Assembly: GCF_964340395.1 (NCBI RefSeq)
Contig: NC_135551.1
Location: 19,207,003-19,271,002 of the forward strand
Source of the DNA: Glandiceps talaboti
Lineage: Eukaryota > Hemichordata > Enteropneusta > Spengelidae
Direction of reading: 5' to 3'
DNA length: 64,000 nt
Position numbers and translations under genes: made by a program. The notes beneath the pieces are model-generated. The model did no database searches, was not told the origin of the DNA, and saw only the letters and a list, made by a program, of their open reading frames with translations. Numbering within the stretch: position 1 is the first letter of the stretch; each line of letters begins with the position of its first letter. Shown here piece by piece: positions 4,756-38,591 of the stretch.

Positions 4756-7700
4756 TTACATGTTGGCCAGCAGCATTGCAGCTAAGATCATATTAATGGC
4801 CAGGAAAGTGCTCAATACTGGCACTATACCACTGTCCTCTTCGCTATCTAGAAATGGAAGAAAAAACATCGTTATGTATGTATGTATGTATGTATGTATG
4901 TATGTATGTATGTATGTATGTATGTATGTATGTATGTATGTATGTACGTACTGTATGTATGTATGTATGTATGTATGTATGTATGTACTGTATGTACTGT
5001 ATGTATGTATGTATGTATGTATGTATGTATGTATGTATGTGCATGTGTATGTATGTATGTATGTATGTATGTATGTATGTATGTATGTATGTATGTATGT
5101 ACGTACGTACGTACGTACTGTATGTATGTATGTATGTATGTATGTATGTATGTATGTATGTATGTATGTATGTATGGACAGACTGGATGGACGGATTGGA
5201 TGGATGGATGGATGGATGGACGGATTGGATGGATGGATATCCATATATTCAATCAACAGGCATAATGCAAAATAATAACAGTTAGTAGGAAATCAGAGAT
5301 TATCGGAGCCACTGGAGAACCTGCATTATGTTGTTCGGTAGAGTCAAAGTAAACGACACTGAAACTCCTTACTTACAGTGTAACAATTAAATCAAATCAA
5401 ACACAGAGGTGTGCTCAAACCCCGATTGTAGTGGTATGGGGCAAGTGTTTCACTCAGGGTCAATGACCGAGCATATCGACAACATTTGATCAAAAAGTCA
5501 GCCAAATAGACTAAGAGGCTTTAGAAGAACTGACAATCTTCGACTCTATAAAAGCCATACAAAAAGGCTTAGCATGGTATACATAACTCCTACCTTCTAC
5601 ACACGTTGTCGCCGGTGTCACACTCCATGTCCCATCGTCGGCACAGGTACTTTTGTCTTTAGTTGCGTCGCTGAGTTTGTATCCATCATTACAGGAGAAG
5701 GTCACTTCACCAGATGTTGCAGCTGCAGGTGTTATAGCTCCATTAGTTGCTGCGGTCAACGCAGTACAAGGAGTGCCGCCGTTTCCATTTCCAGTTGCTG
5801 TAGAGTAAGGACAAAATTTACATTCTTCAGAATGTTTGCAATGTTTATAAATTAACCAGATACGTACAGAGTGCAAGAATGTGTCAGTGACCATAACAGT
5901 GCTGCAGTGCTTCTTACATATTTGTTATTGTTATGAATTGACACATTGCAGTTGAACTGTTACCGCATTATGGTTTATTTTAATCTTGAACCATTCAATT
6001 GTCTTGTTACACTCTGTTGACCGCAATTTTTCTCCAATAAAAATCTCCCTATCTCATATGATACTATGTTCTATTTGGTGAAGAAAATGTCTTCCTATTA
6101 AAGAGCAGTTACTGTAACGTCCCAAACACACCGACACGCTAATTGAATAGGAATAGATAGTGAACGAGTTCTGGCGATTATATGTCATATAATAAGGATT
6201 GCTAGCTTTCGAGTGTTTTTACGCATAATCACCCAAACTATCATTAGCATACACACAATGCGACGTGGTTGCCTAAGGCCCAAGAAAAAAATGTTTGGTT
6301 CAAGTTACCCTAGCTTTTCACAGCTGATCTTAAACGTTTTTTATGTTTTCGAGAAGAAAATAATAAAATCGAAAGAAATAGTGGACTTACATCAACTTAA
6401 AAAGACAATATAAAACTGTTTTTTCCAATTTGTAATGGCTGTACATCTGATGAGAAGAAACCAATAACACGGAGACCATATGAAAAACTACGGAAAACAT
6501 AACTACTTGAACTAGACACTCTCATATGAAATATGTATAGATGAAAAATAAAATTAAAAATCTACCTACCTCACCTATTCTAAAATTGAACGTAATCGGA
6601 ACCATATTTTATTTTTTTAAAAGGGTATTTGTTCCTTCCGGGGTTTCAAATCTTGTACAGTGACTGTATTTTATACGTTTTATATTTTTTCAAGTTTTGC
6701 TGCTGTGGATAACACTGTGACAAAAATCCTTCAGTGAAAATAATTTTGTTTTTAAATATAATGAAATGACGTCTCAATAACGACATTTCAAACCATTTTA
6801 TGGCACATATTTGTTTTTGAATATTTAAGTTCACTTTCGTTTTTTAGCACTGATGTCGGTACCTGGTTCAACTTTGAATTGATGAAAATCAGTACCTTTC
6901 ACTATTAATCGGAGTTCATTGAAACAGAATAATATGCAACTAGTTGGGAAAGTGATACTAACCACAGTTCTTTTTAGCTGTGATGTCAATACACTGTGAA
7001 GCGCTATCTGGTTCAACTTTGGCACACAGGTGGGTATAAGCCGCACACTTGGTCGCGTCTGCAGCTGCAACTGATGCTGCTATGAAACCAGATGTTAATC
7101 CTTTACCAGTGGTACCATCGTCACCATCAGCTATTGATGGCAAGGCGGTACCAGTAACAGCAAAATCACTAGATGGATTTGTCATTTGAGCGTCTTCAGC
7201 GAGAACGAGGTTTATAGAAGTTATCGTTACTGCTGCACTAGTACCGATATTGCTCGCGAACCCTAAGTCGAAGGTGAGGCTAGCAGGTGTGGTCGAGATG
7301 GTGTAGGAAACTGGTCCAGTGATGGCGAAAGTATTGGCAGCTATAGTTATGGCTGAAACGAGAAATGGAAGAATACGTATATGATAGAATATAGGTAACA
7401 ATAACAATATAAACCAGGTAATGACAAGATCTGTATTATCCTTGCATGGTATCAATCGTAAACTGACAAAAGTTAATTTGCTCTCAAATGCCTCCACATT
7501 GCAATGAGACTATTTAGTTAAAATTTATAACTGTACAAATCACCTTGGTTTTATTAGTCATTGATTAATAACAAGAGGAAACTGATATTTTATATATATA
7601 AAACATGGCTCTAGAATAACAATTTAGGCTAAAATCGTCTAATTTCCAACGAGTTTTGTTTAATTTCACTCAATGATATATCACAGCTGGTAATGGGGAC

Positions 7701-8164
7701 TTGTGCGAGAAAATTGATAATTTATATAGAAATATTGATTATTCATATTTGATAATTGTATTGAAATATTGATAATTATATCGGAATATTAAATTTCGAA
7801 TGCGAAATGAAATGATCTGACTGTTGTCAGATTCCGTTGGATGTGTTGAATGCGCATGCGTCAAATAAATTTATCGGATATGGGGCGGAGGCAGCGCCAT
7901 TGAGACACCACAGATCCAACAACGATTTTGTGTTTTAGACTTCGCCACACACATTGAGACGATTCCCTCATGATTATAGCAGTGAGTGAAATCTCGGAAA
8001 ACTATAGTGATCTGACGTGAAAGTGAACAAAACCGACGAAAATATTAATATATTTTTACTCAAATATCAAACAGTTGCCCTTGAAATGCAAGAGTGTACA
8101 CATTACCTGCTTGGTTGATATGGCAACTTCCCAACAGGAACGCTACGGACAAGAACCACTTCAT
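4756..8164 (-). CDS. GPI-anchored CCP/sushi surface protein, copy A (novel N-terminal domain)
   Basis: Four coding exons on the minus strand: 8,107-8,164, 6,963-7,352, 5,594-5,797 and 4,756-4,847 (744 nt, 247 aa). All introns are phase 1 with GT/AG ends. Exon 1 encodes a signal peptide, MKWFLSVAFLLGSCHINQA. Exon 2 encodes about 130 residues rich in Thr, Ala and Ile with four cysteines near its C-terminal end; I do not recognise this domain. Exon 3 is one CCP/sushi domain: four cysteines, GEVTFSC, GYKL and DGTWS in the expected order. Exon 4 is short and acidic, then hydrophobic to the last residues (about 228-247) with no cytoplasmic tail, as in GPI-anchor signals. An acceptor (TTTTTACAG) 22 bases before the ATG suggests a 5' UTR intron. 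Inferred role: cell-surface recognition or complement-like binding. The exon model is strong; function is inference. Confidence 0.85.
4874..5245. repeat. (GTAT)n / (GGAT)n microsatellite in intron 3 of gene A
   Basis: About 300 bp of GTAT repeats with ACGT and CTGTAT variants, passing into GGAT repeats at 5,178-5,240. It starts about 25 bases upstream (gene sense) of the exon 4 acceptor. All open frames across it are repeat artefacts. Confidence 0.95.
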
Positions 8165-38500: not shown

Positions 38501-38591
38501 TATCATCTAAATAAATTCTTATTTCAATTTTACCTGCTTGGTTGACATGGCAACTACCCAACAGGAATGCTACGAAAACGAGCCACTTCAT
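35517..38591 (-). CDS. GPI-anchored CCP/sushi surface protein, copy B (novel N-terminal domain)
   Basis: Four coding exons: 38,534-38,591, 37,906-38,280, 36,533-36,742 and 35,517-35,608 (735 nt, 244 aa), all joined by phase 1 introns with GT/AG ends. Same design as copy A: signal peptide MKWLVFVAFLLGSCHVNQA, an unrecognised ~125 aa domain with four cysteines near its end, one CCP/sushi domain (GEVTLSC, GYKL, DGTWS, four cysteines), and a short acidic linker followed by a terminal hydrophobic tail fitting GPI attachment. The tail differs from A by a single residue (T for A near the end). By eye the sushi exon is about three-quarters identical to A in protein, and exon 2 under half. Intron 1 is 253 bp here against 754 bp in A. 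Function is inferred as surface recognition. Confidence 0.85.
35635..36163. repeat. (GTAT)n / (GT)n microsatellite in intron 3 of gene B
   Basis: About 440 bp of GTAT repeats with GCAT and GCGCAT variants, then about 80 bp of pure GT. Longer than in copy A and with GT in place of GGAT at the distal end. Begins about 25 bases from the exon 4 acceptor. Confidence 0.95.
36899..36964. repeat. (CA)n microsatellite in intron 2 of gene B
   Basis: Pure CA tract of about 33 repeats, absent from the same intron of gene A. Confidence 0.95.
38440..38477. repeat. (GACA)n microsatellite in intron 1 of gene B
   Basis: Short CAGA tetranucleotide run between exons 1 and 2. Confidence 0.9.

Follow-up and report, generated by a model that had tools for sequence, protein, structure and literature searches.

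An exon-encoded domain of acorn worms joined to a sushi domain: a candidate cell-surface module

Two genes that join a sushi domain to a second domain

The closest described systems are sushi (CCP, PF00084) proteins, such as complement receptor 2 and factor H, and the beta-sandwich (Ig-like) domains of PDB structures. We compared them with two genes on the minus strand of a Glandiceps talaboti window, i.e., the whole stretch of 64,000 nucleotides that was analysed (G000:C4:19207003-19271002, in a genome of 590 Mb). Gene A (4756..8164, exons 8164-8107, 7352-6963, 5797-5594 and 4847-4756) codes for 247 aa with a signal-type peptide, an exon 2 domain, a sushi domain and a hydrophobic tail. Gene B (35517..38591, exons 38591-38534, 38280-37906, 36742-36533 and 35608-35517) has the same order of parts in 244 aa. 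A sequence-only reading had proposed two spliced paralogues of four exons with phase 1 coding introns throughout, and both points held: all three coding introns of each gene were phase 1 with GT-AG ends, and the product of gene B was identical, letter for letter, to the NCBI protein P0001 (LOC144432494), so that its splicing agrees with the NCBI gene model. In the protein search that gave P0001, gene A had no record of its own. Intron 3 contained long CATA-type simple repeats in gene A (window about 4850-5250) and in gene B (about 35640-36170).

As in known sushi proteins, exon 3 (5594..5797 in gene A and 36533..36742 in gene B, both minus) was a sushi domain between phase 1 introns, and its nearest sequences were the two complement proteins named above and similar PDB chains. 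Exon 3 of both genes passed the curated PF00084 cut-off of 20.7 bits (28.8 and 31.1 bits; E 1.7e-6 for gene A, run as a 248 aa version with one additional junction residue, and 3e-7 for gene B on P0001), which bears out the earlier claim of one sushi domain per protein. In contrast to the known proteins, the single sushi domain is joined here to an unrelated domain, and six relatives (P0002 to P0007) carried the exon 2 domain with no sushi domain detected by Pfam. Elsewhere in the window (58390-58953, 59155-60204 and 62222-62761, minus strand), two TIR exons, much alike by eye, with a leucine-rich-repeat reading frame between them resembled Toll-like receptor genes.

The exon 2 domain and its settings

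The exon 2 domain (6963..7352 in gene A and 37906..38280 in gene B, minus strand) had approximately 125 residues with four cysteines in the last third, and was coded by one symmetrical phase 1-1 exon. When 25 domain copies were run against Pfam, with cut-offs given for the first member only, the best E value was 0.0085 and any family was matched by a single member only. Among eight whole proteins, P0004 alone passed the cut-off of a bacterial family, DUF2125 (26.3 versus 24.2 bits), which we took as chance; its close relative P0005 scored just 13.5 bits. Apart from this hit the domain had no convincing Pfam match, in line with the sequence-only reading, and its profile had no match below E 0.5 among PDB sequences. 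AlphaFold2 gave a confident all-beta model (block pLDDT 88-96 for P0001 residues 21-140), and the domain is thus predicted to be a beta-sandwich module. Structural matches of the model were middling, with identities of no more than 16% among the 50 matches listed; they were a mixture of unrelated proteins and show no more than a common arrangement.

The domain occurred in several settings. It was accompanied by one sushi domain in genes A and B, in a third copy approximately 20 kb before the window (gene C, L009, 241 aa) and in P0008, whose sushi domain scored 22.5 bits against PF00084, again above the cut-off; in all four the signal-type peptide came first, followed by the domain, the sushi domain and the tail. 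In P0002 to P0007 it was arranged in tandem, and at another locus (L027) five copies lay upstream of an EGF-type exon (L027:9570-9698) on the same strand. When domain exons were checked with the phase left free, phase 1 was seen at 42 of 44 acceptors and at 42 of 43 donors, many of these copies being recent duplicates and hence not independent; phase 1-1 exons from a scan that required phase 1 were discounted as evidence, as the phase had been imposed. The phase 1 exons and the use of the module in a variety of settings were thus supported, and single exons seem to be the units by which the domain is dispersed over the genome.

Genomic copies and the C20 array

What had been described as a small family proved to be much larger. 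With 150 of 153 candidates scored, 33 places resembled exon 2 of gene A at E ≤ 0.001; contig C20 had 29 of them, C4 three and C5 one, and a stop codon lay inside two of the 33. The P0008 gene, too, is on C5. A divergent subtype of the domain occupied at least 150 places (150 of 221 candidates scored), a list that overlaps with the first. Protein searches, each among proteins of limited length (3014, 7993 and 7995 candidates scored), yielded 11 family proteins, five from G. talaboti and six from Ptychodera flava, one of them named 'location of vulva defective 1-like' by its source, a label only. As far as these searches reach, the family is so far confined to acorn worms. The abstract openings available from the literature contained nothing on the domain family, and a term search in the main text of PMC11175523 gave no match for it.

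A single region, C20:12376477-12444533, held 97 of the at least 150 places of the divergent subtype: 96 consecutive units with a period of approximately 687 bp (687 or 688 bp in 87 of the 96 spacings), followed after 2.4 kb by a single unit. None of the 97 rows contained a stop. In the first units, adjoining exons were identical at 392, 408 and 414 of 414 bases (95–100%), a partial fourth exon pair at 272 of 274, and introns at 266 of 273 to 271 of 274. The near-identity of both neighbouring exons and introns suggests either a recent amplification or an uncertain assembly. The array is a possible giant repeat protein. We consider it improbable that the whole is a hemichordate-specific family, exon-duplicated to well above 100 copies, of fast-changing receptors or adhesins at the cell surface, one of them a giant protein of about 97 near-identical repeats. 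The long stop-free array and the likeness of its first exons would also suit proteins that are structural and not involved in recognition, with repeats forming mucus, tube or matrix material, and one relative was named mucin-22-like by its source, again a label only. However, genes A to C carry a single domain each and end in a hydrophobic tail, and a run of Ns ends about 2 kb upstream of the array, whose size is as assembled and whose transcription is putative; on balance we regard a structural role as unlikely.

Tails, divergence and a possible surface role

By eye, nine of the 11 proteins ended within or just past a hydrophobic stretch. A separate set of tails was set aside, having been chosen by a script that sought hydrophobic ends. 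In gene A (exon 4, 4756..4847, minus), gene B (exon 4, 35517..35608, minus) and P0008, small and acidic residues preceded the hydrophobic stretch in which the protein ends; this tail shape makes GPI anchoring a candidate. The tails might instead be plain transmembrane anchors, or the proteins might be secreted, a somewhat unlikely alternative that agrees with the charged residues past the hydrophobic stretch of P0009 and the one or two at the end of P0003, P0006 and P0007, but less well with the endings of P0008 and of the two window genes. The charged end of P0009 and the missing hydrophobic tail of P0011 also count against a surface module.

Genes A and C differed unevenly along their length. 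In 150-base steps they were 92–100% alike from window position ~6464 down to 4365 and 61–86% alike from 8564 to 6465, a stretch in which exon 1 was nevertheless identical across 57 aligned bases; in the 600 bases before 8565, a global alignment gave 41–50%, and a local alignment again 87% further upstream. Exon identity was 79.6% for exon 2 (the gene A exon being taken two bases too long) and 97.8% for exon 3. For the pairs A-C, A-B and B-C, dN/dS was 0.89, 0.68 and 0.65 in exon 2 (1.04, 0.96 and 0.82 in its N-terminal half), 0.11, 0.55 and 1.35 in exon 3, and 0.27, 0.14 and 0.14 in exon 4. Two features count against a freely changing exon 2: its whole-exon dN/dS was never above 1, and the contrast was uneven, with the exon 3 B-C value of 1.35 resting on few changes. 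The A-C pattern could arise without selection if the 3' half had undergone gene conversion; it would also be consistent with such conversion plus a relaxed or diversifying course of change in exon 2.

We favor, with moderate confidence, an extracellular module that is attached to the cell surface and serves in binding or adhesion, exon 2 varying freely while the sushi and tail exons stay alike. Exon and gene duplication would have spread the domain among acorn worm proteins that look secreted or membrane-attached, where it stands next to a sushi domain or is repeated in tandem. We infer the surface location, anchor type and binding from these features, and a recognition role may follow. The finding would add an extracellular module with no convincing Pfam family, limited to acorn worms within the reach of the searches and seemingly still duplicating. 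It offers a clear case for studying the spread of a symmetrical exon, and for asking if modules of this sort have a part in recognition in animals that are close to the chordates.
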